Shown here one piece after another: positions 1,953 through 48,888 of a stretch of DNA of 64,000 nt. Every line of letters begins with the position of its first letter. Position 1 is the stretch's first letter. This stretch comes from a virus. Under the pieces are notes generated by a model, which worked only from the letters and a program-made list of their open reading frames with translations, was not told the origin of the DNA and did not search any database. Location of the stretch: IMG/VR virus record IMGVR_UViG_3300047673_000554, positions 1 to 64,000 of that record. The stretch is one strand, 5' to 3'. The translations under genes and the position numbers were made by a program.

Positions 1953-3653
1953 ATGCTCAAAGCCGATAAAATACTCGATGAAATAATATTTGTGCTCTCA
2001 ACTTTTGAAAGCTATATCAAGTATAGGTCCAAGCTTAGTCTAACCGACGCCAATATCTCTGCTGAGAGTTTGGTTGCAGATTTGTTGAACGCACTGCACG
2101 GCTGGGACTTGCGCAATACCAACGCCGCAACCAGTAATTATCCGTGTATTGACTTAATCGACGAAAAAAAGAGAATCGGCGTACAAGTAACCGCCACAAC
2201 CACGCTAAAAAAAATAAAGAGTACAATTGATTGCGTAGATTGCCATGAATTTCATTCTAAAATCGATAGATTGATCATCTTCATGCTCCTCTCTCGACAA
2301 TCGGACTATTCTGTTTCGCCTCCAAAGAATATAAAATTCAGCAAGACCGATGATATTATTGATTTTCACACAGTCATCAGATATGCAAAATATTCAGTCG
2401 GTAGTCTGGAGGCGCTCAGCAATATCAGGGCAGTTCTCAGGAATCATATCTCTAGTCGTGTCCCCTACTTCAATAACGAAGTCGAGAATTTGATTATGGT
2501 CGACATGGAGCAACGCTCTACAAGTCTTCCAAAATCCAGCACACAGCTGGAAATTTTCAACTTAATAAAAGGCAATCAGAAAGAGTTGGCGAGGGTTCGA
2601 CTGGATGATTGGGCAAAACAAATATATGCCAATGCATCAGCAGAAATATACAACTTGGCAGAGCTTTACACTCTGGTAAACCCTGTGGAAGCCGAGCTTC
2701 ATTACCAGAGGGCCATTGAGTTGAACCCTGGCAATGTCAAGCATGCAAATATTCATGGTCTGAACCTCATGAAAATTGGGAAGCTGGACGAAGCCGAAAA
2801 ACTATTCAAGGCCTGCCTGACCTCTGCTGATTTATCGCCTACAGAAAAAGAGCATATTTTGGGCAATTTGGGGATACTGTGCAAAAACCGAGCGCGCTGG
2901 CCCGAGGCAATTGATTATCTCACACAAGCCTTGGCGTTCCCTCGGCCTATGATTAATCTGGAAATGGTCAACCACCTAAATAATCTTGCAAGCTGTTACA
3001 ATAATATTGCTAATTACGAAGATTCAGAAATACTTCTCGATGAGGCCTATTCTTTGATTAACGTGCTTATCGAGGAAGAAGATGATCTTGATCGCAAAAG
3101 TATGTTGAAGCTCAAAAAAAGCAATATTCTGACCAATATATCAATCCGTCTCAGGCACAAAGCGAACAGGGATAACGATGAAACCCTACTTTTAAAAGCA
3201 ACCGCCGTAGTTAAGGAAGCGATTGATATTGCTGAGCTACTGAAAGAAAAAACAGAATTGACGCGTCACTACGGAAACCTGTCAAATATTTACAGCCAGA
3301 GGAAAAACTATGAAAGAGCAAGGAGCTTTCTGGAGAAATCGTTAGCTCTTGCCGTGGAAAACCAAGATCATCGCTCAGAGGTCGCGAACCTAGTCAATCT
3401 TGGTTTGCTGCAGATAAATGAACAACTGCTCCCCGACGCTGAACGCACTCTTCAGCATGGGCTCAAAAAAGAAAATAACCAGTACCCTCATTTTCGCGCC
3501 CATCTTTATGCAAACCTGGCTGTTGTGAATAAGTTAATGAAGAAGCATGTAGAATCAGCGCTTTTTTTCTCGGAAGCAGAACAACTTTATATTAAACACA
3601 ATATGCAGTCTCACCTGAAAGAGTTAAACAATAGATTTCTGGAATTGAGATGA
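1953..3653 (+). CDS. SMEK-like N-terminal domain with TPR repeats
   Basis: A 566-residue protein. The N-terminal ~140 residues resemble the SMEK domain: helices followed by a nuclease-like core with IDLID at about 66-70 and GVQVT at about 76-80, where a PD-(D/E)XK enzyme would carry its acidic-x-lysine pair. The Q-V-T ending means catalysis is uncertain. From about residue 215 onward come TPR-type helical repeats (for example AELHYQRAIELNPGN and ARSFLEKSLALAVENQ), a protein-binding scaffold. Proteins of this layout occur in bacterial defence islands, with the TPR part as likely sensor or partner-binding region. It stands alone, far from its neighbours, with its own ribosome binding site. Composition is AT-rich. 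A role in phage defence is inference from context. Confidence 0.6.
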   Translation: MLKADKILDEIIFVLSTFESYIKYRSKLSLTDANISAESLVADLLNALHGWDLRNTNAATSNYPCIDLIDEKKRIGVQVTATTTLKKIKSTIDCVDCHEFHSKIDRLIIFMLLSRQSDYSVSPPKNIKFSKTDDIIDFHTVIRYAKYSVGSLEALSNIRAVLRNHISSRVPYFNNEVENLIMVDMEQRSTSLPKSSTQLEIFNLIKGNQKELARVRLDDWAKQIYANASAEIYNLAELYTLVNPVEAELHYQRAIELNPGNVKHANIHGLNLMKIGKLDEAEKLFKACLTSADLSPTEKEHILGNLGILCKNRARWPEAIDYLTQALAFPRPMINLEMVNHLNNLASCYNNIANYEDSEILLDEAYSLINVLIEEEDDLDRKSMLKLKKSNILTNISIRLRHKANRDNDETLLLKATAVVKEAIDIAELLKEKTELTRHYGNLSNIYSQRKNYERARSFLEKSLALAVENQDHRSEVANLVNLGLLQINEQLLPDAERTLQHGLKKENNQYPHFRAHLYANLAVVNKLMKKHVESALFFSEAEQLYIKHNMQSHLKELNNRFLELR

Positions 3654-4084
3654 CCATCGAGCACTGCAAGCAAAATTTCTTTCTGATCCTAAATAACCGA
3701 ATCAAAGCTAACCATCTGCTCCTGTGGCTCAAGTTATACAGGACGGAGCCTGTCGGCGATCAGTGCTGGTGACGCCGCAGTACCGGCGTCCAGGCTGAGC
3801 GATGCGTTCAAACATATCCGTTTGGAGCTGACCTGGCTGCTTTGGGCTCATATTCTGCGAGGATTCAAAAGCAGCTTTGGGTCGACTGCTGCCGGTGACG
3901 ACCTAGAGTCGTGAGCTTTTTTCAGTGATGGATTGGGCGTAGCTCTGCGTCTCCCCCCTAGCCAGACGGGATAACCCACCACAACCTCTTCGCTTTGTCG
4001 CAATTTCTAAGCAAGCCGTAATAACTGCCTGACAGGGGCACTGCCGGTAATATGCTTGTATTTTTCTTGAAAGGAGTCGACACC
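3654..4084. other. Intergenic region holding the putative left attachment site
   Basis: No gene is visible. The stretch contains TGATGGATTGGGCG at 3926-3939, repeated exactly at 43965-43978 beside the integrase. Just before the pseudogene at 4085 is GAAAGGAGTCGACACC, the same leader type as at small-gene copy C. Confidence 0.5.
3926..3939 (+). repeat. Putative attL core (14-bp direct repeat)
   Basis: TGATGGATTGGGCG matches 43965-43978 exactly. The right copy overlaps the DusA codons for MMDW, the known target of DusA-type integrases. The left copy is not embedded in a dusA reading frame, so this may be an insertion at a secondary site. Confidence 0.5.
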
Positions 4085-4305
4085 ATGCCTGGTGATTATT
4101 CGCTATCGGATGTGCTGGAGAGGATCTACCACAACCAGTTGGCCATGGAGGCGCCGTGATGGAGCTGACGCTGCAGGCTGAACAGCAGGGTTCATCTGAG
4201 ACGGGCGGAAATGTCAGGGGAGCGCTGCAAACGATTGGTGAAAACGCAGGCCACATCAAGCAGGGCCTGGTCCGCATCAGGAGATTGGACATCGGCTACC
4301 GCTGA
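4085..4305 (+). pseudogene. Frameshifted small conserved gene, copy B
   Basis: The reading frame opens MPGDYSLSDVLERIYHNQLA, nearly identical to copies A and C, then stops early. One base is missing near 4153 compared with copy A; after that point the other frame continues VMELTLQAEQQ through GENAGHIKQGL to a stop at 4303-4305. The ribosome binding site (AAAGGAGTCGACACC before the ATG) is retained. The lesion looks recent because both halves remain well conserved. It sits 235 bases upstream of the DGQHR/HEPN-like gene pair. Confidence 0.75.
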
Positions 4306-4540
4306 GCTGGATGAGGCATGCAGGTAACACGCCGAAGCGAATAATGTAGGAGTGTTCCTAGGTTCTACAAGAAAGGAGCGGGTTACTTTCAAAATCCATG
4401 TCTTTGCCAATGGATTGGTTCCTACAGAGCCAAGCTGAAAACCCAGAAACGATTAAATTTCTGGGCCCCTCCAAAAACGGCTGGTTTTCGCTTACGATGG
4501 CATAAATACAGCTAGAATTATTTTAGATAGAGGGGCAAAA

Positions 4541-5680
4541 ATGTTCGAGGTTTTCTCAGTAGACTATGACTCCAGACTAAGTGCTTTTTGTGTAAACTGC
4601 CGGTGCACTTACCAAACATTTTTGCAAATCACTGAAGGTGCGGAATTAAATCTTGCCATACAACGAAACATCATTGGCGGAACGAAAACCTACAGAACAC
4701 TTCGTGCGGATTTAAAGCGTGGATGCATTCTCCCTCCAATCGTACTAGCACTAGACAAACAAGTCCTAACACAAAGGATAATAAACAGAGGCTCTGTCAC
4801 ACCTTCCGAAATATCTTTACTTGGTGAAAAGCTTTCAGCATCGATAGATCAGTGCGAAGTTTACATTATTGATGGATTACAGCGCACTAACGCAATGAGA
4901 ACTGCGGCTAAAGAACTTGAAAATGAATCCGAAGAAGATCTAGGCCAGTATCTTGAGCGTAAAATTCGCCTTGAAATATGGGTAGGTATTTCATTCGGGG
5001 CGATTGCATACCGAATGCTACTTTTAAACGCTGGTCAAAAACCAATGTCTATCAAGCACCAGGTAGAGATTCTTAGCTTCAAACTGAGAGACGATCTAGC
5101 ATCCATTGAAGGCATTGATATTTTCACGTCCAAAGAAAAACGACGTCGTAGGCAGCCAGGACAATTCCATCTATCTGTACTTGCTCAGTCATTTCAGGCA
5201 TGGATTCAAAGACAGCCTAACATTGACATGACCAATACTGTAATGGAGGAACTTTTGGCAGAGTCCGCCATTGAGACTCTCGGCGCAGCACTTTCAACTC
5301 GCGAATCCGACGACGCATTTAAAGATCTGATTCGCTGGATAGTGGATACTGACCAAAAACTAGGCGTAGATTACTTAGAGTTTTTTGGAAATGATACAGT
5401 CATGCTCGGCCTAAGTGCCGCTGTTGGAGAGTTCGGGGCTGACGAAGATTTAAGACATGACATGATGACAGCATTAGAAACATTAACCAAACGATTAAAC
5501 TCTGAGGGCCCCTCTGCAATAGGCATCGAACTATTTAACAAACTTAGACGCGGAATTGACTCTAAGAAGTTCAACGTAGGTGCTGCCACAAGAGATATGG
5601 TATCCAAAGCATTTGAACAATTTTTTTACTCTGGAGGAAGAAAAACCATGGATCGGTGCTGGCAACTGGCGAGTAAGTAA
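4541..5680 (+). CDS. DGQHR/ParB-like protein (DndB-like fold)
   Basis: A 379-residue protein with DGLQR at residues 111-115, a variant of the DGQHR motif found in DndB-type and ParB/sulfiredoxin-like proteins, followed by LLNAGQKPMS at about 161-170, also typical of that group. Such domains bind DNA or nucleotides and occur in phosphorothioation, restriction and other defence loci. The gene is followed two bases later by a HEPN-like gene, so the two are probably one transcript and one system. AGGGGC lies about 8 bases before the ATG. AT-rich composition sets the pair apart from the neighbouring phage genes. Inside the prophage limits it would be cargo at the end of the late region. No methyltransferase or other Dnd gene is nearby. 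Confidence 0.65.
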   Translation: MFEVFSVDYDSRLSAFCVNCRCTYQTFLQITEGAELNLAIQRNIIGGTKTYRTLRADLKRGCILPPIVLALDKQVLTQRIINRGSVTPSEISLLGEKLSASIDQCEVYIIDGLQRTNAMRTAAKELENESEEDLGQYLERKIRLEIWVGISFGAIAYRMLLLNAGQKPMSIKHQVEILSFKLRDDLASIEGIDIFTSKEKRRRRQPGQFHLSVLAQSFQAWIQRQPNIDMTNTVMEELLAESAIETLGAALSTRESDDAFKDLIRWIVDTDQKLGVDYLEFFGNDTVMLGLSAAVGEFGADEDLRHDMMTALETLTKRLNSEGPSAIGIELFNKLRRGIDSKKFNVGAATRDMVSKAFEQFFYSGGRKTMDRCWQLASK

Positions 5681-5681
5681 A

Positions 5682-6755
5682 ATGGCTTACTCCGAAAAAT
5701 TCTTAGACTTTCTTGAATTACCCGCCGATACCGACTTGGAGGCCTTCAGCAACCGTCTCGAAGAAATAATCCCTGAAACACCGCTTAGCGGATTGATAAG
5801 CAACCAAACAAAACAAACTCTCATAGACAACTTTGACACTACTCTAAATTTCACGACAAAAACTACTATCCCCAACACTACCTTTTCAAATAGCTCTGCA
5901 TATCACGAAATACACTCATCGATAAATGACACATTGATATGCCGCGTCTTGGAGCTTCATAAAATTAGTAGCTTTTCTGCGCTCGCATCTGACGGCGAAC
6001 GGTTGCTTTTATTATTTATCGCGCAAGAAGGTTTCACTGACTTTCCTTTTCTAGCGCCCTCAGGCCCAGGAAACACACTTCCTTTCCAAAACTCAAACTT
6101 CAATGTAATTTTTGAGTGGGCCGACCAAAGCGCGAAAGAAACGGATTTAATCTCGTCAATATATGCCCCTTCATTCACACCATTAGTTGCGCACACCGAC
6201 TACAACACTCATGCAACCGTATCTTTAAACCCAAATGGGTTTTATACAAAATTAGAAGATTTTTCGATATTAAACGAAGCCGTATCAGAATCGAGAATCA
6301 AATGGAGGTTTCTTCTTCTATATCGCATCCTGGAACATGGATACATAAGAAACTTATTAGAGCTAATACAACAGAATATTTTCTTTAAGCCCAAAGACAC
6401 TCTAACAAAAGCGACAGAGACCTTAACAAACGAATATTCACAACTTACAAATCTAATCGAACAAAACGGATTGATTCCTATCTTTGACAAAATACAAAGA
6501 ACGACTCACCACACAACAAATCTTTATCTTGGCGCTATCAAAGAAAAACTTGAACAAGATTCGAGAGCAAAAAATGGCAAACCGTTTCAAAAGGGTGCTT
6601 ACATAATATATCAAATCAGATGCAGCATCGTGCACGCCGGTGAAATGTCAATATTTTATGACAAGTACCCTGATGCTGAGTCAGGGCTGCACGAACTTTA
6701 CGATCTATTCGACAACGCCGTATTTAAATACTTAGGCATCGAATACAAAAAATAA
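5682..6755 (+). CDS. HEPN-like partner of the DGQHR protein
   Basis: A 357-residue protein starting MAYSEKFLDF. Near its C-terminus is R313-C-S-I-V-H318, an R-x4-H motif in the helix-rich setting of Apea-like HEPN domains; this supports a ribonuclease or RNA-binding effector role but does not prove it. There is no clear independent ribosome binding site: the ATG starts two bases after the upstream stop, pointing to translational coupling. A longer in-frame start inside the upstream gene is possible but unlikely. The gene ends just before a strong bidirectional hairpin terminator, so the pair forms a closed two-gene unit. The N-terminal two thirds match nothing I recognise. Confidence 0.6.
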   Translation: MAYSEKFLDFLELPADTDLEAFSNRLEEIIPETPLSGLISNQTKQTLIDNFDTTLNFTTKTTIPNTTFSNSSAYHEIHSSINDTLICRVLELHKISSFSALASDGERLLLLFIAQEGFTDFPFLAPSGPGNTLPFQNSNFNVIFEWADQSAKETDLISSIYAPSFTPLVAHTDYNTHATVSLNPNGFYTKLEDFSILNEAVSESRIKWRFLLLYRILEHGYIRNLLELIQQNIFFKPKDTLTKATETLTNEYSQLTNLIEQNGLIPIFDKIQRTTHHTTNLYLGAIKEKLEQDSRAKNGKPFQKGAYIIYQIRCSIVHAGEMSIFYDKYPDAESGLHELYDLFDNAVFKYLGIEYKK

Positions 6756-10232: not shown

Positions 10233-11067
10233 AGTGCCCAAACTCCAGAGTGAACCCTTGTTTACGCGGGATCCCGCCTTGCATCAACGAGCTTTGTTCT
10301 TCCTCGATGCTTTTCAGGCACCAGGTGCCCAGCACGTCGCCATAACCCGTGGTCAGGGTCATCGGCTTGAGCTGGGCACCCAGCGTGCGCAGCGTGTCGA
10401 GCTGTTTCAGGCCGCCCTTGAAGCCGGGGAAAATTGCGCCCTTGAGCGTGATTTTTTCGTCCCCCATGCCCACGCCTTGCTGCGCCGGTCGCCGCGACAG
10501 GCGCTCCTGGGAGGCCCAGCGAAATTCGGTCGAGCGCCGCAATTCATCAAATGCCGCCGTGTCGAGATTGAAGAAATACGGCTGCGCCTTGGGATCTTGC
10601 GGCTGGATGATCAGCAGGTGCGGGAACGGTTTCACCGCCTCCGGTGCCGGCGTCTGGTCCGTGGCAAACGCCCCCGTGGGCACAATGTTGGCCAGCGCCG
10701 GGCTGACCTTGCCGGCGATCTTGCCGATCGCCGTCGTCGCCTTGCCCGCCTGCTCCTTCAGCACGCCCATGCGTTCATCAATTTGCGACAGCGCCCGGGT
10801 GGCCGTGCCGTACATGGCCACCACTTTCCCGACCTGGGCCTGAGCGGCATTCACCCCGCGCATGACGCGCTGAAGCTGGGCGCCGACCGCCGGACCGACA
10901 AAGGGCAGCCCCTCCAGCTCGGAAGCCGCGCCGGTGATTTCCCCGATCGCGCCATTCACCGGCCCCAACATGCCGTCCAGGCTGCGCCGCCCGGTTTCCC
11001 CGGCCGAGGCCAGGAACCCCAGCCCCGACTGTAATCGCTGCAATGCGGTCTTGTTTTGATCAGACAT
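10207..11067 (-). CDS. Tail protein U (P2-like) with N-terminal extension
   Basis: 286 residues. The C-terminal ~140 residues (from PFPHLLIIQPQDPKAQPYFFNL to EFGHYGDDM) match P2 gpU, a protein at the tube end/baseplate hub. The first ~135 residues form an alanine/glycine-rich helical extension (GPVNGAIGEITGAASELEG and similar) absent from P2 gpU, which is about 160 residues. It may be a fused tail-interior segment or a linker to the tape-measure protein, encoded just upstream. The ATG at 11067 starts MSDQNKTALQ; the gene begins 12 bases after the tape-measure stop. Confidence 0.8.
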   Translation of the reverse strand: MSDQNKTALQRLQSGLGFLASAGETGRRSLDGMLGPVNGAIGEITGAASELEGLPFVGPAVGAQLQRVMRGVNAAQAQVGKVVAMYGTATRALSQIDERMGVLKEQAGKATTAIGKIAGKVSPALANIVPTGAFATDQTPAPEAVKPFPHLLIIQPQDPKAQPYFFNLDTAAFDELRRSTEFRWASQERLSRRPAQQGVGMGDEKITLKGAIFPGFKGGLKQLDTLRTLGAQLKPMTLTTGYGDVLGTWCLKSIEEEQSSLMQGGIPRKQGFTLEFGHYGDDMQNV

Positions 11068-11078
11068 ATGTCCCCCGA

Positions 11079-13739
11079 TTAAACGTGCGGCGCGTCAAAC
11101 AGTTGAGCGCTCCCCACCTGCTTGGCCATGTCGCGATAGTACTGATCGAGCTGCGGCTTGATCTGCGCAAAAAGCTGATTGCCATCCTTCACGTCGCCGT
11201 TGACCGTCAGCGAGAACGGCGCCTGAATCGCCACGTTCGACTCGACCTTGGGCGCCTCCGCTTTCGCCGCCATCGGCTTGACCAGTGCCCCGGCCGCCGG
11301 GTCCGCGCTGGCCGGCGGCAACATCATGGCTTTCGCCGCCTCCCCCGGTTGCGGCGGCGGATCTTCCAGGCCCGAGCGAATGACCTTGGGCCGGCGCAGC
11401 TCGGAGCCCGGGAAACGCACCTTGTTGGCAAAGTGCGGCAGCAACATGGCGTCCTTGGAATTGAGGTCGCGCGGGTCATACGATACCGGCGGCGCAGCAG
11501 CGGCCGACGTGGCGGCGACACTCGCCCCCGGACCGGCGCCGGGGTTGGTCAGCATCAGCGGCCCGGTGGTCGATGGCGCGAACGACTGGGCAATCCCGCC
11601 CAGCACCGGCGGGATGTCCTTGCCGGCATTGGCCATCATCAGCGGTCCGGCGGCCGGTAGACGCTTCAGATCGTCGGGCGTACCGAACGCCGCCTTACCC
11701 AGCGCACCGCCCAGGGCGTCCCCCCCTTCACTGCCGAGATAGCCGCCAATCAGCCCGCCGACAAAAGTACCAATCACCGGCAATACCGCCGTGCCGATGG
11801 CCGCACCGGCTGCCGCACCGACCAGCGTGCCCGCCAAGCCACCAGCGGCCGCACCATAACCTTCGGCTTTATCGTCCTGCGTTTCGGCGTTCTGATACGT
11901 GTCGTAGGCCTTAAACCCGGCATCCACCACCGACACCACGGCGGCGCCCTTGACAGCGGAGCCGATCCCCAAGCCTCGACCACCACCACTTCGCCCCCGC
12001 CCTCGGCCGGACCGCCCGCCTTTCTTGCCTTTTTTGCCGTCCTTGCCTTCGGCATCGAGGTCGCCCGCCTCCAGACCGCCGCCACCGCCGCCACCCCCGC
12101 CCACCACAATGACCTTTTGAGGGATGTTCGGATTGCCCATCAGCGAACCGCGCCCGATGTTGAGCAAGCCCTTGGCAATCTTGAAGGTGCTCATGGCGCT
12201 CTGAAAGGCGATCACCGCCGCCACGGCCGCGCCAATGCCGGTCACCACCTTGGGCGATTCGTCAGACAGCTTGCTCAGCCCCTGGGTGACGTAGGTCAGC
12301 CCGTCCGCCACCTTGTCGGTGACCGGGCGGAATGCGTCGCCGATCGCGCGCATGGCGTCGTCCATGCCCTGGGCCATTTCCGACCACTTCTGCGCCGACG
12401 ACTGCCGGCGCTCCTCCAGGTTCTTGTCCAGGATCCCGGTGGCATTGGCCGAGTCCTTTTTCAGACTGGCATACAGCTCCTTGTTCTGCATGAACGCCGT
12501 CAGCGCGCCCTTGACCTGCATGTCGGCGAACAGGTCGCCGGTGCGCAAGGCTTGCTCCAGGGACGCGATCATGGCCTTGGCCTTTTCCGGGTCCGCCTCC
12601 TTGCTGATCTTGGCCGTGGCTTCTGCCATCGCGGCGGCCTTCTTCGGATCGGTCGCCGCGATGTATTTTTGCGCCAGCTCAAAGCTGGATTCCAACGTGG
12701 ATTTGCCGTTCTGCAGCCCGGTATTCATCGACGCCTGATAATCGATCCCGGCCTTTTTGTAGGCCGTCACCGTGTCACCCGAGCCGATCTTTTCCATCCA
12801 GTTTTTCAGGTTGTTGGCCGCCTCGTCAGAGCCGCCGGCGGTCTTCATTTGCACCTGCAGCATGGCGCCCAGTTGCGACACCGAATCCATGCCGGTGATG
12901 CCCAGCTTGCCCATCCCCGCCAGCAACTCGGGGAACCACCGCGCCATGTCGGCCGCTTCGAAACTGCCCGCCTGCCCTTGGTAGGCGATCGCCTCCAGGG
13001 CCTTTTGCATCATGGCCGGGTCGGTGATCTTGGCGTTCTGCCCCAGGGCGTTGATCATCTTCGCCGTTTCGCCACCGTCGGAGCCTTGGCCCACCGCGAA
13101 CTTGGCGGCGGTCGGGGCGTAGGCCAGTGCCTTGTCCAGCTCCATGCCGGCGCCCACCAGGGCGTTGACCACTTCGGCCACGTCGTTACGCGCCATACCC
13201 GTGTCCCGCGACGTGTCGATAATCTTCTTCGACATCTGCGCTTCTTCGGGGTTGTTGGCAATGTTCGACTTGATCGCAATGTCGCGAATGATCGCGCCAT
13301 AGTCCGCGCTGACCTTGGTCGGAATCGCCATCGCCGCCGTGGCGGCCACCGCTTGGCCCACGCTACTTTTGAGCTTCTGCTTGCCTTCGTCGAGTTGCTG
13401 GTGACCTTTGGCCTTCAGCTCGGCCTTGTGCGCCGCCTGCCCCATGGCCGAGTAGGCCTTGGCCAGATTGCGTACTTCCACGCCTTCTTTCTTCAGGCTG
13501 CTCAGGTTGCTTTCGAGTTGCTTTTGCAACGCCGAAGCGCCCTTTTCGCCCGCCATGTGCGCCCGGCGCCATTCGTCGCGCAGGCGCATGGTGTCGCCAA
13601 TGGTCTTTTCCAGCACCCGGGATTTTTTGCCGGTTGCCTCCAGGCGCTGCATGCGATTGGTGACGTCCTTGAACGCCAAGCCCACCGTGGAGCTGACCGC
13701 CCCGCCAATGACCAGGCCGAGCGCGAGTTTGTTCGCCAT
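11079..13739 (-). CDS. Tail tape-measure protein (P2 gpT-like)
   Basis: An 886-residue tape-measure protein that sets tail length and is ejected during infection. The N-terminal half has long helical, coiled-coil-prone segments and the TP901-type core (GRDMARW-like blocks around the tail-tape domain). The centre holds hydrophobic glycine/alanine stretches (AGTLVGAAAGAAIGTAVLP) likely to cross the membrane. A low-complexity insert at about 550-595 combines nine glycines, GKKGKKGG and RGRGRSGGGRG. It follows the E/E' genes and precedes U, X and D, as in P2. Start MANKLALGLVIGG is preceded by no competing start. Confidence 0.88.
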   Translation of the reverse strand: MANKLALGLVIGGAVSSTVGLAFKDVTNRMQRLEATGKKSRVLEKTIGDTMRLRDEWRRAHMAGEKGASALQKQLESNLSSLKKEGVEVRNLAKAYSAMGQAAHKAELKAKGHQQLDEGKQKLKSSVGQAVAATAAMAIPTKVSADYGAIIRDIAIKSNIANNPEEAQMSKKIIDTSRDTGMARNDVAEVVNALVGAGMELDKALAYAPTAAKFAVGQGSDGGETAKMINALGQNAKITDPAMMQKALEAIAYQGQAGSFEAADMARWFPELLAGMGKLGITGMDSVSQLGAMLQVQMKTAGGSDEAANNLKNWMEKIGSGDTVTAYKKAGIDYQASMNTGLQNGKSTLESSFELAQKYIAATDPKKAAAMAEATAKISKEADPEKAKAMIASLEQALRTGDLFADMQVKGALTAFMQNKELYASLKKDSANATGILDKNLEERRQSSAQKWSEMAQGMDDAMRAIGDAFRPVTDKVADGLTYVTQGLSKLSDESPKVVTGIGAAVAAVIAFQSAMSTFKIAKGLLNIGRGSLMGNPNIPQKVIVVGGGGGGGGGLEAGDLDAEGKDGKKGKKGGRSGRGRGRSGGGRGLGIGSAVKGAAVVSVVDAGFKAYDTYQNAETQDDKAEGYGAAAGGLAGTLVGAAAGAAIGTAVLPVIGTFVGGLIGGYLGSEGGDALGGALGKAAFGTPDDLKRLPAAGPLMMANAGKDIPPVLGGIAQSFAPSTTGPLMLTNPGAGPGASVAATSAAAAPPVSYDPRDLNSKDAMLLPHFANKVRFPGSELRRPKVIRSGLEDPPPQPGEAAKAMMLPPASADPAAGALVKPMAAKAEAPKVESNVAIQAPFSLTVNGDVKDGNQLFAQIKPQLDQYYRDMAKQVGSAQLFDAPHV

Positions 13740-35158: not shown

Positions 35159-37651
35159 CTACCGGTTTTTCACCCTAAATGGAACCGTGTACATATCACA
35201 AAAATCAGAAGCGCGAAGTTTAGCGGCGATCAATTTTTGTCTTATCGCAACCGCATCACCCAACTCATTACTGCTTGCTACTGAATTAATGAATTTCCGA
35301 ACAGACTCTCTAAACTCTCCAAGCTTTTCCCGTGTCATGACACGAATATTTTGGTTAGGTGAAGCAGCGTATTCGAACAACGAATATGGGTGCACCAAAA
35401 TTGGAGTATAAGCACTCGAGTGATCATAACGCTCCTCAAACCACTCACAAGAGCCATTAAGCTGATTACAGTAATACTTGGTTATAGTTTCAACCACAGC
35501 CTCATTTTTACATTCAATCACAAAATAATTTAACTCTCCAACTTTCCACAGTACATCAGGCCCCTTTTGGTACTCTTGCTCCGGGCGTTGACTACGGAAG
35601 CCTAAATACCTAGCTACATCCTTCATCCTTGCTTCAAACAATTCGGAACTATCAAGCTTAAAGTCCAGCCCCTCCAACACCCCATTTATTTCCACTACAA
35701 GCTTATTTGGATCTTGAAACGTTTTAGTCAAAAACTCACTACATGCTTTAGCCTGATCCAGCACCGCCCCAGAAATTTTATGATATTGAATACCTTCGAT
35801 AGGCTTCAATAGCCTTCTATTGTCCCCAACAGCAGACATTTGAATTTTTTGAGCAGAGGCTTGATCTAGCAAATTAGTGTATTCCGCATAATGCTGCTTA
35901 ACCAAACCTCTAAACTTCAAGTCAGCAACTGCATTAACTAACTCCTTTAACTCTTGAGCCGCAGCAGCAAAATTGCTATTGCACGCATAATCGTATGCTT
36001 TTCTGAGTGACAAGATATTACTATCAATGGAGTTTTCTTGAGTGTAAGCCAAAGTTGCCAACACCCCCTTACTTGCTGCAACCCACTCCTCTTTGCGCGC
36101 CCAGCAATAATTTAACGTATCTGTAATCTCTGATAATTTCTTTCCTTTGATCTGTTCAGAAACCTGCTCGGACAGGGCTAACTGGGCTCTAGTACCCGGT
36201 GAAAACTTGCTCATAGCACCTTGCGCATAAAGCTTGCTGGTCAGATCTCTACCCATTAAAAAAACAACACAGTAATCATCATTTGATCTAACGCCACGCC
36301 CCATACCCTGTTCAACGCGTTGAATTACCTGATTTACGTCCCGATCACTTCCCAATAAAACCGTTTGATTGACCCTGTCGATTTTGCTGCGAACATCTGG
36401 AAACCCATCTATCACTAACAGCCTGCAGGCATCACCGGGCAGGTCAATCCCATCATACTTATTAACAAGTACGACCAAACCAACTTTACCGGCCTTTAGC
36501 TTATCCACCCCCTCGTAAAGATTATTTGCAAATAGAACTAAATTAGCGCTATCCCTCCAGTAATCAGCACGCGCCTTCGAAGGTACAATAACTACCACAT
36601 TCATATATTCAGCGATGAACTTGCAATATTTCTTTATATGATCATCAGCTAGTTCAGAATTAATTACTTGAGGCAGGAGTATCATACGATCCCCAACATC
36701 ACCCGCTGAATCAGGAACGATAGGACGCTGTAGAAATTTATCATCAACCCCGAAATGACTAGCCAAAATTGAATCATCAACTAACGTGGCGGTCATGAAC
36801 AACTTACGATCGGCATCAATGATACTAGGAATCATATGAATCGGAATTGCATGCGGGGTGATCTCGATACTCTTCGCCCCAACGACACAATGACTCAATT
36901 TTGGAAACTCTTTCACAAGAGGCCACACAAACTGTAAATAATCTTCTTTTTTATGCGCAATTAGAATTTTACAAACTTCTGATATTTTACTCTGCCAAAC
37001 CCAATAGGGAACTTGCATCAACGCAGCTGAACTACCACTTTCGACTTCAAGAGCTTTTGATTCGCATTGGTTATGGAGAGATTCCTTAAATAAATCATAC
37101 AGCGCGGTATATACCGCGGTGCCCTGCGGAATCTCGATTGTAAACTGCTCTTCAACGTAGCCAATACATGCATGAGCATCATCTACGACAAGACTAGCAA
37201 TTTTTATTTTTACACCTTCGTCACCAACGCCGAACGCTGATCGGCCATTGACCAATTTGAAAATATTCGCCACGAGAATTGCTTTACCGGAAATAAAGCG
37301 ATGTGAATGTACATCGTCAGTAACTTCAACACCCAGTTCTTCAGCAGCATCCATCACTTGTTTTACAAGATAAGGATCAGGGCAAATATATACAGCGGGA
37401 AACTTTCCCTCATTTATACAACTTTTTAACGCAAGTAAACCAACGACAGTTTTTCCGCTACCAGTGTTTAACTTTAGAACTAAACTATTTTCATTTCGAC
37501 GCTCGAACCACTTCGACCAAACCTGAGATTGGACATCTCGAGGATATTGAAACTTTTGAGCATTTTTTTTGGGTAAAGCATTAAAAATTTCCCTGGGCTG
37601 CAGGACGGTATCAACCGTTACACCTGTTCCAATACGTGTGAAGTCAATCAT
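35159..37651 (-). CDS. Superfamily 2 helicase with C-terminal PD-(D/E)XK nuclease
   Basis: An 830-residue protein. Helicase motifs: LNTGSGKTVV (motif I, 63-68), VVDDAH (motif II, 155-160), MTATL (motif III) and QGMGRGVRSND (motif VI). Near the C-terminus GPDVLW (697-702) and FVIECKNE (E713-C-K715) form a PD-(D/E)XK active site, so helicase and nuclease are on one chain. It lies convergent with the repressor gene and between the two operator clusters, a cargo position. AT-rich composition differs from phage replication genes. A single-gene DNA-targeting defence system is the likely role; a recombination function for the phage is the alternative. AAGGGA lies about 12 bases before the ATG. Confidence 0.75.
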   Translation of the reverse strand: MIDFTRIGTGVTVDTVLQPREIFNALPKKNAQKFQYPRDVQSQVWSKWFERRNENSLVLKLNTGSGKTVVGLLALKSCINEGKFPAVYICPDPYLVKQVMDAAEELGVEVTDDVHSHRFISGKAILVANIFKLVNGRSAFGVGDEGVKIKIASLVVDDAHACIGYVEEQFTIEIPQGTAVYTALYDLFKESLHNQCESKALEVESGSSAALMQVPYWVWQSKISEVCKILIAHKKEDYLQFVWPLVKEFPKLSHCVVGAKSIEITPHAIPIHMIPSIIDADRKLFMTATLVDDSILASHFGVDDKFLQRPIVPDSAGDVGDRMILLPQVINSELADDHIKKYCKFIAEYMNVVVIVPSKARADYWRDSANLVLFANNLYEGVDKLKAGKVGLVVLVNKYDGIDLPGDACRLLVIDGFPDVRSKIDRVNQTVLLGSDRDVNQVIQRVEQGMGRGVRSNDDYCVVFLMGRDLTSKLYAQGAMSKFSPGTRAQLALSEQVSEQIKGKKLSEITDTLNYCWARKEEWVAASKGVLATLAYTQENSIDSNILSLRKAYDYACNSNFAAAAQELKELVNAVADLKFRGLVKQHYAEYTNLLDQASAQKIQMSAVGDNRRLLKPIEGIQYHKISGAVLDQAKACSEFLTKTFQDPNKLVVEINGVLEGLDFKLDSSELFEARMKDVARYLGFRSQRPEQEYQKGPDVLWKVGELNYFVIECKNEAVVETITKYYCNQLNGSCEWFEERYDHSSAYTPILVHPYSLFEYAASPNQNIRVMTREKLGEFRESVRKFINSVASSNELGDAVAIRQKLIAAKLRASDFCDMYTVPFRVKNR

Positions 37652-42691: not shown

Positions 42692-43780
42692 CTAAACCAG
42701 CTTGCTTAACCACTCCCACTTTTTATAAGCGTCCCCTCTCCCTCGAAGGTGGGTATACCGCCTCAACGAGTTCCAGTCCCTGTGCCCTGAAACACTCGAC
42801 ACTCTCGGGATATCCCAGTCCATCTCAAACAACCGACTCACCCCTTCGTGTCGCAGATCATGGAAATGCAGGTCTTCGATGCCTAGCATCGGGCAGGCCC
42901 GGGTGAAGGACGCCGACACCGACCTGGCGTTGTAGGGAAAGATCTCCACTTCCGTTTTGGGCATGGACTGCAGGATCGCCCAGGCTTCATCCGGCAGATG
43001 ACACCACACGTTGTTGCCGATCTTCTGCCCGGGGTTTTTCATGTCCCGCACCAGGACGGCCTGACGGATCTCATCCAGGTCCTCCCAGCGAATCCGCGTA
43101 ATCTCTTCCTGCCGGCGAGTTGAGAAGAGCGCGAAAGCAATCAGCTTTGGCATATCGATTTGGCTTTTTCGACGCTCCTGCATTTCGAAAAAATGCTTCA
43201 TCAGCTTGTCCAGCTCATCAAGGGTTGGCCGACGGTTACGCTCCTTGCTCTTGCTCACCATGCCCAACTTGCGCAACACCCTGCGTGCGTCGGACATGGC
43301 CAGCGGGTTCACCTCATAACCCCAGGCTGGCCTCGCCACGGACAGCACCGCCCCTAGGTGCGACAAATCGTTGCCGACTGTCTGCGCCTGGACGCCACCA
43401 CCCTCCTTGCTCATTCGCCACTGCGCGAACTCCACCAGCTTCTGACTACTCAGCGCCGCGTCGTCGAGCTCGCCCAACCAGGTGTCCTTGATCGCGTTCA
43501 GCGTGGCGCTCTTGGTCTTGCCCAGCGGTCGGATCTTCTCGTACTCATCCAGGTACTGCTGGATCATCTTCTTGATCGTCACCCCTTTGCGGTTCGCGCG
43601 CTCGATGGCACCCGGTTCCGCCAGCTCTGTTTCCCGGCGCTTGATCCAAGCCTGGGCTACCTGCTTGCGGTCGAAGGTTTGGCTTTCCTGATAAACTGTC
43701 TTCCCGTCCCGATTGATCCGTATCTGCGCCGTGTAGGCCGTCGAGTTGTCCTTGCGCTTACGTGATGTGATCGTGCCCAT
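42692..43780 (-). CDS. DusA-type tyrosine integrase
   Basis: A 362-residue tyrosine recombinase. Catalytic residues: R222 or R223 (STRRQEE), H307-x-x-R310 (FHDLRHE), H333 (SGHRDW) and Y342 (LRRYTHL). The N-terminus (MGTITSRKRKDNSTAYTAQIRINRDG) matches integrases that target dusA. A dusA 5' mimic is found 103 bases beyond its start, as in that class. It is minus-strand and ends the prophage on the right. Confidence 0.92.
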   Translation of the reverse strand: MGTITSRKRKDNSTAYTAQIRINRDGKTVYQESQTFDRKQVAQAWIKRRETELAEPGAIERANRKGVTIKKMIQQYLDEYEKIRPLGKTKSATLNAIKDTWLGELDDAALSSQKLVEFAQWRMSKEGGGVQAQTVGNDLSHLGAVLSVARPAWGYEVNPLAMSDARRVLRKLGMVSKSKERNRRPTLDELDKLMKHFFEMQERRKSQIDMPKLIAFALFSTRRQEEITRIRWEDLDEIRQAVLVRDMKNPGQKIGNNVWCHLPDEAWAILQSMPKTEVEIFPYNARSVSASFTRACPMLGIEDLHFHDLRHEGVSRLFEMDWDIPRVSSVSGHRDWNSLRRYTHLRGRGDAYKKWEWLSKLV

Positions 43781-44413: not shown

Positions 44414-46231
44414 ATGATTGTAACTTCAGCAATGGCTGCCGCAGCCATACGCAGCCTCACTCCGCTGATTGGTGCAGCCTACAAAGGTGCAAGCAAATCA
44501 TTGAAATCCAGTTTTTCAAACTGGTCCAATACGAATAGTAATGAAGAAATTGCGAATCATCTTTTACAGATCGGCGTTGTTAAAACAATCTGGTCATCAG
44601 GAAAAAGCAAGTTTATTAAAGACTTTTATTACCCATCAAAGATTGACGAAATCAACGATGGCGAGGGCATTGACCATGTCGATCAACTCCCTAAAGGAAA
44701 CATAGTTATTCAAGGCATAGTTGGCCAGGGCAAATCTATGTTCATGCGCCACCTAGCTTGTTCTGCCATTGGAGAAATTGGGAACTCTTATATACCGGTA
44801 TTCATTGAACTTCAAAAGATAAGTTCAAAAAAAGGCTTGAAACAGATCATATTTGAAAACTTGGAACTATTGGGAATCACAGTAACTGAAGAGAGTGTTA
44901 AATATCTAGCATCAAAAGGCTACTTAGTCTTTCTGTTAGATGGATTTGATGAAGTCGTAGATGCATGCATCAATGAAACTGTTGAAGCGCTTGATGAATT
45001 TCAGAGACGCTATCCAAAACTTAAAATCATTGTCTCATCACGCCCCGGTAGTGGCATCCAGCAGATGGTAGGCTTCGAAGTTCTAGATCTGACGCCTTTA
45101 ACGGAAGATGATTACGAACCTTTCTTAAAGTGCCTCCAGCTAGATACCGTAAAAAGAGAGGCGTTGATAGCCGCAACTGAATCTGCTCCAGATTCAGTTA
45201 AAGAAATTATAAGCACACCATTAATGCTCACGTTAGTTGTTTGGGTTTACGAATCCGAACAAGAAATTCCATCTACGCTAAGAGATTTCTTTGAAAAACT
45301 ATTCCATGTCGTTTTCACCAGACACGATAGTTTAAAGGTTGGCTTTACAAGACAACACTACAGCGGTCTTTCGGAAACAAAACTCCTACAACTTTTTGAG
45401 GCGTTCTGTTTTATGATCGTTCAAGAAAATTTCGGAAGAAGTTTAACACGACCAGAATTTAATACTGCATTCACCAATGCACTTGAGTATTCAGAAGCAA
45501 CAAATTGCGATGTGGACCATTTCAGAAAAGACATTGTAAAAGTCGCATGCCTGATGCTGGAAGATGGCCTTGACCTAACTACTTTTCTGCACAAAAGCAT
45601 TTTGGATTATTATGCCGCCGCATTTATATTACACAGCGAAGAAGAGTTATCCGAACTATTTTATTCGGACGCTTTTGAAGGATTTAGCCAATGGCAGCAT
45701 GTGTTATTCTTCTTAGCTGACGCTGACAAATACCGATATTCAAAACATTATTTACTCACCCATTTCCAACCGGGCATTGATGAAATCGATCAGTTACTTA
45801 AATCAAAGAGTGACGATATTTTATTACGACACATAAATAAGAAGCATACTGGCTTCACTTACTTAATTAGTGAAAAAGGGCAAATGCTTGGTTGGTCAGG
45901 CGCCAAATCGGCAGCAACGCAAATTGGTATCTATTTTGAAAGAGCATTAATTTACGGAGGCCAAAAAATATTCAATGGGAGTTTACCTGCCACCCAGCTA
46001 GCCCAAATAATAAAAGTTGCGGCTGTACAAGGGAAAAACAAACCTGCAGGTAGAAACTATTATCACATTGAAATCAGCGAGGTTATGCGCATTATTGGCA
46101 CTGATTCATACTGGCGCGAAATTGCTCTCATCGATCTTGAATTACACAAAAAAATGGACGAGGCACAACGCACAGTTGAACATCAAAACAAAAAGAAAAA
46201 AATCTTTGGTAAAAAACTGAAGCCCCGCTAA
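44414..46231 (+). CDS. NACHT-domain NTPase (bacterial NLR-like)
   Basis: A 605-residue STAND NTPase. Walker A GIVGQGKS at 101-108, Walker B VFLLDGFDEV at 172-181, VSSRPGSG sensor at about 207-214, and the HKSILDYYAAAFI motif typical of the end of the NACHT module. The N-terminal ~85 residues have no clear effector domain; the C-terminal ~200 residues may sense the trigger. Bacterial NACHT proteins are known anti-phage proteins that act by cell suicide. Gene stands alone and is AT-rich. Confidence 0.85.
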   Translation: MIVTSAMAAAAIRSLTPLIGAAYKGASKSLKSSFSNWSNTNSNEEIANHLLQIGVVKTIWSSGKSKFIKDFYYPSKIDEINDGEGIDHVDQLPKGNIVIQGIVGQGKSMFMRHLACSAIGEIGNSYIPVFIELQKISSKKGLKQIIFENLELLGITVTEESVKYLASKGYLVFLLDGFDEVVDACINETVEALDEFQRRYPKLKIIVSSRPGSGIQQMVGFEVLDLTPLTEDDYEPFLKCLQLDTVKREALIAATESAPDSVKEIISTPLMLTLVVWVYESEQEIPSTLRDFFEKLFHVVFTRHDSLKVGFTRQHYSGLSETKLLQLFEAFCFMIVQENFGRSLTRPEFNTAFTNALEYSEATNCDVDHFRKDIVKVACLMLEDGLDLTTFLHKSILDYYAAAFILHSEEELSELFYSDAFEGFSQWQHVLFFLADADKYRYSKHYLLTHFQPGIDEIDQLLKSKSDDILLRHINKKHTGFTYLISEKGQMLGWSGAKSAATQIGIYFERALIYGGQKIFNGSLPATQLAQIIKVAAVQGKNKPAGRNYYHIEISEVMRIIGTDSYWREIALIDLELHKKMDEAQRTVEHQNKKKKIFGKKLKPR

Positions 46232-46369: not shown

Positions 46370-46402
46370 CCTCGTTATCAGCTTCCCAAGCTGATAACGA
46401 GG
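46370..46402. repeat. 15-bp inverted repeat over the anticodon stem
   Basis: CCTCGTTATCAGCTT and AAGCTGATAACGAGG are perfect complements separated by CCC (the anticodon). A tRNA anticodon stem is only 5 bp, so the extra symmetry was contributed by the inserted element. Confidence 0.7.
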
Positions 46403-46426
46403 GTTCGATTCCCTTCACCCGCTCCA
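46378..46426 (+). tRNA. tRNA-Gly(CCC) 3' fragment (attachment scar)
   Basis: From the anticodon arm (TCAGC-TTCCCAA-GCTGA) through the T-arm (GGTTCGATTCC) to CACCCGCTCCA. The acceptor 5' strand and D-arm are absent, so it cannot be a working tRNA. It is the duplicated 3' end left by integration into tRNA-Gly, so the element lies to the left, with the intact tRNA expected beyond the window's left edge. Confidence 0.75.
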
Positions 46427-47201: not shown

Positions 47202-47304
47202 ACGATGGCTTAGCGTCTTATGAACAGTTCTCCCCGCTAGGCAATCGACAGTAATTGGCCAAAAGCAGTCATTCAATCCTCTACAAAAGCAGGGGCGATT
47301 CACC

Positions 47305-47955
47305 ATGCAGGATCACGTACTCAAGCGCATCGATGAACTGATTTCGCGGGGCAATGCCGCCGCCCGGTCACAATCATCCCAAGACTATTGGATGAAAGAC
47401 GTCGTGGAGGCACAGAGTTGGTTCTCGTCCGCGGCTAACGCGATACACCAGGTCGCCCCGCCTGGCAGTTTCTACATGGCAGAGCTGCAGAGGATCGTCG
47501 AGCATGAGCAACTCCAAAGCGGCTTCCCGATTTCCTCCGTCGAAAAACTCCTTGGTCTGCTTCAGTCGGTGCAGCTTGAAGCGCGAGCTGGGTTGCTGGT
47601 CAAACTCGAGGACCAAGTAGTCGCCTCAGCGTTCGATGACTTTCTTGATCACGCGACGCAGTATCACAAGGCCGGCAAGGTCAACGAAGCTGCTGTCCTG
47701 GCTTCTGCGGTGCTTGAAGACACTATCAAGCGCATAGCACGGAAGTCTGAGATTGCGGTTGGTGGTGTGTCTCTCGAACCTCTCATTGATGAACTGACCA
47801 AGCGCAGCGTCTTTACGCAGGTGAAGGCGAAGCGTTTGAAATCATACGCAGCGGTTCGCAACCACGCTCTTCACGCGGAGTGGGAGAAATTGGACATTAG
47901 AGACGTTGGTGCACAACTCTCTGGGCTTCGTGAACTTCTAGATGAGCATCTTTGA
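47305..47955 (+). CDS. HEPN-like protein in an integron-cassette setting
   Basis: A 216-residue helical protein with R185-N-H-A-L-H190 (AAVRNHALHAEW), the R-x4-H motif of HEPN RNases and close to DUF4145-like proteins; EAAVLASAVLEDTIKRIA is the preceding helix. It may cleave RNA or bind nucleotides. The stop is followed seven bases later by an attC site, as in integron gene cassettes. No integrase or second cassette is visible. Copy C of the small gene lies upstream. GGGGCGATTCACC before the ATG is a weak ribosome binding site. Confidence 0.7.
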   Translation: MQDHVLKRIDELISRGNAAARSQSSQDYWMKDVVEAQSWFSSAANAIHQVAPPGSFYMAELQRIVEHEQLQSGFPISSVEKLLGLLQSVQLEARAGLLVKLEDQVVASAFDDFLDHATQYHKAGKVNEAAVLASAVLEDTIKRIARKSEIAVGGVSLEPLIDELTKRSVFTQVKAKRLKSYAAVRNHALHAEWEKLDIRDVGAQLSGLRELLDEHL

Positions 47956-47962
47956 CGCTGAC

Positions 47963-48020
47963 GCCTAACCCGTCGTTCCAGCCGACCGCCTTCGGCGGCG
48001 GTTGAACTCCAACGTTATGC
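47963..48020 (+). other. Integron attC recombination site (59-be)
   Basis: A 58-base imperfect palindrome from GCCTAAC (47963-47969) to GTTATGC (48014-48020), whose inner part CAGCCGACCGCC-TTCG-GGCGGTTGAAC folds into the hairpin typical of the site. Core sites R' (GTTATGC) and R'' (GCCTAAC) match the attC consensus, and the inner AGCCGAC...TTCG...GCGG...AACTC order is as in aadA-type attC sites. It follows the HEPN-like stop at once. Confidence 0.8.
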
Positions 48021-48888
48021 AAAAGGAGTTCGCCGCCCCCTGAAATTTCTGACTGAATCGGACTTAGTTTTTAGACAAGCCGGTATGTCAGTAATGGATC
48101 GATTGCAGTCGTCTGAATTATCCGTACACGGGTGATCACCTGTGAAATGCGCTATAGGGCCTGAAAGCCCCCTGTGTCGGGGCTTCCGGGCAAGCTACCC
48201 CTCGTCCTAAAACACTTCAAAGCGCCCCTGATACGAACTTTTGAGAATTCGAAAACTCAATAAGACGCTTATTTTCCAGCGTCACACCCTTGTAAATTGG
48301 GGGTTCTGCAGATCGACCACCGACCTGGCTTGCTCTGGACGATACGCAAAGCCACTGCACTTTTTTGCAAAACCTTGCACACCGTGAAATTGCAAAATGC
48401 GCCACTAACTGCTCGGCGGGCTTGGGCGCGACCTTGACTTGCGCAACACCCGCCTTTGCACAATAAAGGGACGCAAAGCCCGTCGGCGGGAGGGGGATAA
48501 GTGCTTTTTTAATCGTTTTTTTATCATCCAATGATTTTTTTGCTGTAGGACTGCGGTTACACACTACTGCGTTCATCAATACTGCAAGCGTCATCTTGAT
48601 CAATCCTCGTTGCGATCGGCAGCCACACGGCGCCCCAGGCATCGCCGACTACATCGCACGATCAGCGTCCCTCCACCCATTGCGGCGCTCCAAGACGGCA
48701 TCCTCAGGAGTGCATTTGTTCTCATTAGCCGCAAATGAGTGCGAAGGCTACAGCGCTGAATTTAGCTACCTTAGCCCTCCATAGCCGTTCGACAACCTCC
48801 AAACACCTTAACTCGCTCTAGCATTACACCCTTAGAAATGCTATCTAAATCGAAAGTCGTTTAAGTAATCAGCGTAGGAGTTAAATGG
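48021..48888. other. Intergenic region after attC
   Basis: No second cassette is evident. A minus-strand frame at 48217-48642 (starting about 48597, MTLAVLMNAVVCNRS) is open but has weak codon structure and no recognised domain; I do not call it a gene. A stem-loop GAAAGCCCC/GGGGCTTCC lies near 48158-48189. The last ~60 bases hold GTAGGAG before the next gene's ATG. Confidence 0.4.

Follow-up and report, generated by a model that had tools for sequence, protein, structure and literature searches.

The stretch of DNA analysed here (the window) comprises the first 64 kb of a 79,597-bp IMG/VR virus record. Reading of its ORFs reveals two tailed-phage structural modules with cargo in between, and within this cargo lie a gene for a HEPN-fold protein (47305-47955) and an attC site. 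Because sequence next to this locus is also present in Pseudomonas genomes (36 of 150 and 38 of 150 sampled), we take the host to be a Pseudomonas. The features of the locus are:

42692-43780, minus strand: phage-type tyrosine integrase, distinct from integron integrases (Pfam Phage_integrase, E = 1.5e-15)
46379-46426, plus strand: 3′ half of a tRNA-Gly (CCC), a probable remnant of an attachment site (from its sequence; no ARAGORN call)
47247-47302, plus strand: dispersed Pseudomonas intergenic repeat, in the position of a cassette leader (alignment of genomic copies)
47305-47955, plus strand: HEPN-fold gene, 216 amino acids, the ORF of the cassette (relatives, structural model, Foldseek and dN/dS)
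47857-47874, plus strand: codons of the Rx4H motif, R185-NHAL-H190 (alignment of 12 homologues)
47963-48020, plus strand: attC site, 58 bp (covariance model R1, bottom-strand fold and plasmid attCs)
47963-47969, plus strand: R″ core of the attC, GCCTAAC
48014-48020, plus strand: R′ core of the attC, GTTATGC, with the crossover expected after G48014
48021-48053, plus strand: 33 bp behind the attC, in common with Pseudomonas alkylphenolica (sequence)
48087-48110, plus strand: second short-repeat copy, CAGTAATGGATCGATTGCAGTC, where the P. alkylphenolica homology ends

The phage-type integrase scores only 16 bits against the integron integrase model TIGR02249 (cut-off 265), and nothing in the whole record or in P. 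alkylphenolica exceeds that cut-off. The tRNA-Gly 3′ half stands close to this integrase, and ARAGORN calls no tRNA gene anywhere in the record, the window included. A sequence-only reading of this DNA had placed the HEPN gene in a tRNA-linked island; this description does not hold, as only half a tRNA is present and the region is not a simple island but lies between the two prophage structural modules.

The stretch between a phage-type integrase and a tRNA 3′ half is a usual site of prophage cargo, and here it encodes a NACHT-domain protein (44414-46231; Pfam, 3e-11). Elsewhere in the window are adjacent DzbA and DzbB homologues (4541-6755; PADLOC E-values of 4.9e-102 and 2.3e-35), a Dazbog-type pair adjoining the first phage module; an almost full-length PDC-S28 candidate defence protein (35159-37651; PADLOC, E = 0); and a TPR protein (1953-3653), the N-terminal stretch of which matches the PADLOC Aga_REase-PNTD model (E = 3.4e-37).

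The attC site

The attC (GCCTAACCCGTCGTTCCAGCCGACCGCCTTCGGCGGCGGTTGAACTCCAACGTTATGC) begins 7 bp beyond the HEPN stop codon, and its coordinates and cores agree with those of the 58-bp GCCTAAC/GTTATGC site previously read from the sequence. A covariance-model search had been proposed as a check. Our model, R1, was seeded with 11 attCs from plasmids and chromosomal arrays, the window site being excluded. The site matches R1 over its full length (1-60) with 67.7 bits and an E-value of 1.4e-15, and the match covers the R″ and R′ cores, the L boxes, the spacing and the fold. Part of this high score reflects the fact that three plasmid seeds belong to the same attC type as the window site. These three, located by unrelated genes (on the ereA side, by a Polaromonas gene and by aacA34), are 83-87% identical to the window attC over 52-58 bp. 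No second attC is detected by R1 up to E = 10 in the 64-kb window or at E ≤ 0.01 across the 79.6-kb record. The claim that neither an integron integrase nor a second cassette site is visible is borne out. One of the three plasmids, Polaromonas sp. JS666 plasmid 1, carries two attCs behind two hypothetical genes (3356-4627), and genes for SIR2 and an ATP-binding protein come soon after.

On the bottom strand, the unconstrained and the R-box-constrained minimum free energies of the site are the same (−11.8 kcal/mol), with the R boxes paired. Plain shuffling indicates a stem that is only mildly stable (z-scores of −1.2 and −1.6), and the case for an attC is therefore one of motif arrangement, not of stem energy. 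The palindrome could alternatively be a transcription terminator or a chance hairpin: attC hairpins look like terminators, the stem is only mildly stable, the record has no other such site, and Rfam yields no match for it, relaxed threshold included. However, an E-value of 1.4e-15 with both cores, the L boxes and the spacing in place is at odds with such an origin, there is no T run, and sites of the same kind stand behind unrelated plasmid genes and behind HEPN relatives. This reading is already contradicted, and we give it next to no weight. The palindrome at 47963-48020 is, as judged from its sequence, an attC with a predicted recombinogenic hairpin.

The HEPN protein and its relatives

The assignment of the 216-residue protein to the HEPN fold is based on its Rx4H motif together with its top fold matches, in agreement with the earlier description of a HEPN-like gene. 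R185, A188 and H190 are invariant in 12 homologues, at identities as low as 23%. The AlphaFold model, generated from four sequences, is almost entirely helical and of moderate confidence (pLDDT 81, pTM 0.54). Its best Foldseek matches in the PDB are HEPN proteins, including HepT toxins, with a probability of 1.00 and weak E-values (0.04-0.3, best 0.043). Against Pfam DUF4145 (PF13643), the window protein scores below the cut-off (14.5 bits against 23.1; E = 0.037), and distant homologues at about 25% identity reach or approach it. No PADLOC defence model matches the protein.

RNase action of HEPN domains is established knowledge (PMC3710099), and on that basis the fold and motif make an HEPN RNase the most likely, and a reasonably probable, identity for this protein. 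Once triggered by phage infection or stress, it would cut RNA by means of the Rx4H motif, and this might lead to dormancy or abortive infection. Since HepT toxins are among the nearest solved folds, the gene might instead derive from an MNT-HEPN toxin-antitoxin pair, as the toxin left behind after loss of its antitoxin. However, no antitoxin or nucleotidyltransferase gene adjoins it, and E192 occupies the place, two residues beyond H190, of the HxY tyrosine of HepT; we regard such an origin as very improbable.

The closest relatives form a clade of seven, the window included, at 46-93% identity. Genome scans identified P. alkylphenolica PSB00016 (93%), a Burkholderiaceae metagenome-assembled genome (MAG; 74%) and a Curvibacter MAG (70%); three more came from sampled genomes (G1017, 77%; G1070, 49%; G1124, 46%). 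In all seven, an attC or attC remnant lies directly behind the stop codon. The P. alkylphenolica site is decayed (37.3 bits; R″ GTCGAAC, R′ GTCATGC) and fails the bottom-strand R-box folding test. An R″ remnant, GCCTAATC, follows the stop codon in the Burkholderiaceae MAG, as does GCCTAAC and then unrelated sequence in G1017 (both judged by eye), with GTTAAGC just ahead of the G1017 ATG. G1070 has a complete attC of 24.5 bits and further sites downstream; G1124 has a decayed site followed by a gene, seen by eye, for which R1 gives no match. In Curvibacter, a GTTAGCC core lies just upstream of the HEPN start, and the stop codon is followed by a collapsed 32-bp site, a second ORF and another collapsed site. 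Relatives lacking the palindrome, which would speak against a cassette, were sought in this clade, and the site was found present, decayed, collapsed or truncated, never traceless.

The Curvibacter locus (10646-11310) is itself a two-gene array, the attCs of which have shrunk to about 30 bp without a hairpin (16 bits). Because its sites have collapsed and lost their hairpins, standard attC finders would probably miss this array.

Beyond the clade, 18 more distant homologues were identified among 800 sampled genomes. Five of the 18 are located between attCs on both sides, some cores being recognized by eye; the remainder have no clear attC sites. One of the five (in G615) lies within an array of at least 150 model matches. 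Integron integrases above the curated cut-off are present in four of the genomes (G325, G386, G482 and G615), in G325 at 0.9 kb from the HEPN gene. One 44%-identity copy is a broken gene with its 3′ end missing. HEPN genes and attCs are thus often associated across the wide family, and regularly so in the close clade only. Close relatives in other bacteria precede attCs as well, which makes the gene part of a family that integrons have spread. Plasmid relatives of the protein are all below 30% identity, and neither the single-protein and profile scans of IMG/VR nor the phage records yielded a HEPN relative.

Flanking repeats and the history of the cassette

No GTTRRRY (G/TTRRRY) 5′ cassette core is found shortly ahead of the HEPN ATG. 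Its place is taken by a dispersed Pseudomonas repeat, which ends at CGATTCA, 2 bp upstream of the ATG. This repeat is about 55 bp long with a 22-bp core and in some regions occurs in several copies per 10 kb (loci L154-L180); we know of no name for it. A second copy, of the 22-bp core, lies behind the attC at 48087-48110; because the 22-bp pattern was drawn from these same two copies that bound the unit, the chance value of the match is not independent. Similarity between the window and P. alkylphenolica runs from about 47249 to about 48107 and falls to background outside; identity is 79% in the leader, 92% in the ORF, 83% in the attC and 79% in the tail. The unit bounded by the repeats thus recurs in P. 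alkylphenolica, at an unrelated site. The right flank of the window has a similar stretch in genome G118, where the likeness starts within the short repeat and the cassette is absent; in G120, a relative of P. alkylphenolica, the SDR gene has no unit behind it. The left repeat, the right 22-bp copy and these two comparisons place the ends of the unit at repeats.

The tail itself (48021-48130) is found in P. alkylphenolica alone among 200 Pseudomonas genomes, and its exact 16-mers give only chance matches in unrelated sequence of IMG/VR. In P. alkylphenolica it reads core-AAAAGGAG-TTCGC-ATG, which resembles the first bases of a next cassette. An arrangement of the left and right flanks as MITE-like inverted repeats was rejected, local alignment scoring no higher than in shuffles. 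Gene-length-spaced repeat copies elsewhere were considered as cassette-like arrays, with nothing clear; one was a duplicated methyltransferase-like gene. The dN/dS between the window HEPN gene and the P. alkylphenolica copy is 0.14; the protein has therefore been kept while the P. alkylphenolica attC decayed.

Taken together, the best explanation of the locus, and one that we hold to be highly probable, is a gene of an integron cassette that is now stranded. Its status as a cassette gene is strongly supported by the model match, the fold, the plasmid attCs and the relatives in true arrays. In the simplest history, an ancestor of the HEPN gene would have been taken up into an array through the action of an integron integrase on the folded bottom strand of the attC. 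A piece of this array, the HEPN cassette and the first bases of the next, would then have been joined to Pseudomonas intergenic repeats with loss of the 5′ core, and the repeat-bounded unit would have moved between chromosomal sites through recombination between repeats. The structure originally proposed, that of an integron gene cassette, thus stands as to the ORF followed by an attC and the relatives in arrays, whereas the 5′ core is missing and a Pseudomonas repeat is found instead. That the locus is a whole cassette put in place directly is not supported: an integron integrase was probably not responsible for the most recent relocation, because the 5′ core is absent, the repeat abuts the ATG and the unit recurs elsewhere. 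Normal excision of the cassette is no longer possible, since there is one att site and no integrase.

Integration of cassettes into attG targets is known (Loot et al. 2024, as cited in PMC12901181), and a lone attC without an integrase is the expected product. An integron integrase might therefore have placed a free cassette directly into an attG, in which case the two halves of the target would be the left flank and the stretch behind the attC. We consider this unlikely: the TTRRRY cassette start is absent at the left end, a cassette-free site joining the left repeat to the tail was not found, and the same ends at unrelated sites in the window and in P. alkylphenolica require later movement anyway. 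It is less probable still that the 22-bp repeat is recognized by an as yet undescribed recombination mechanism which shifts gene-sized units between loci and picked up an integron cassette.

Comparison with known cassettes

Lone cassettes, CALINs, phage cassettes and attG insertion are all known already. As in orphan or CALIN-type cassettes (Cury et al. 2016; for phage CALINs, PMC9892861), an ORF is followed here by an attC with no integrase nearby; unlike them, the window cassette has no 5′ core and is flanked by Pseudomonas repeats. The CALINs of PMC9892861, which also documents cassettes in phages, have at least two attCs, whereas there is one in the 79.6 kb of this record, which is thus not a CALIN by that count; nor, having no integron integrase, is it a complete integron.

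An integron cassette HEPN family with a known structure (3jrt) has been proposed to act as a dormancy RNase (Anantharaman et al. 2013, PMC3710099). It likewise consists of an integron-carried HEPN domain with an Rx4-6H motif. However, no sequence match between 3jrt and the window protein is found among PDB sequences at E-values up to 1, and the window protein is nearer to DUF4145-type HEPN proteins, found in Pseudomonas and Burkholderiales. Phage-defence cassettes were reported in 2025 (Kieffer 2025 and Darracq 2025, cited in PMC13092281); to the extent that they are described there, they are alike in carrying a single defence-like gene, and the HEPN gene, with a putative role in defence, is a candidate single-gene cassette of this kind.

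The seven members make up a clade, spanning Pseudomonas and Burkholderiales, of HEPN toxin-like genes linked to integron cassettes. One member has left integrons, its site decayed and its protein under purifying selection in P. alkylphenolica, providing a concrete case of integron cargo becoming fixed in chromosomes.

Separately, two phage contigs, IMGVR_UViG_3300021189_000016 (L181/L183) and IMGVR_UViG_3300034191_000008 (L182/L184), contain 7 and 11 attC-like sites, respectively. These alternate with short ORFs, several of which appear by eye to encode DNA methyltransferases. In the portions read, the sites score on one strand and the apparent genes lie on the other, the reverse of normal cassettes.
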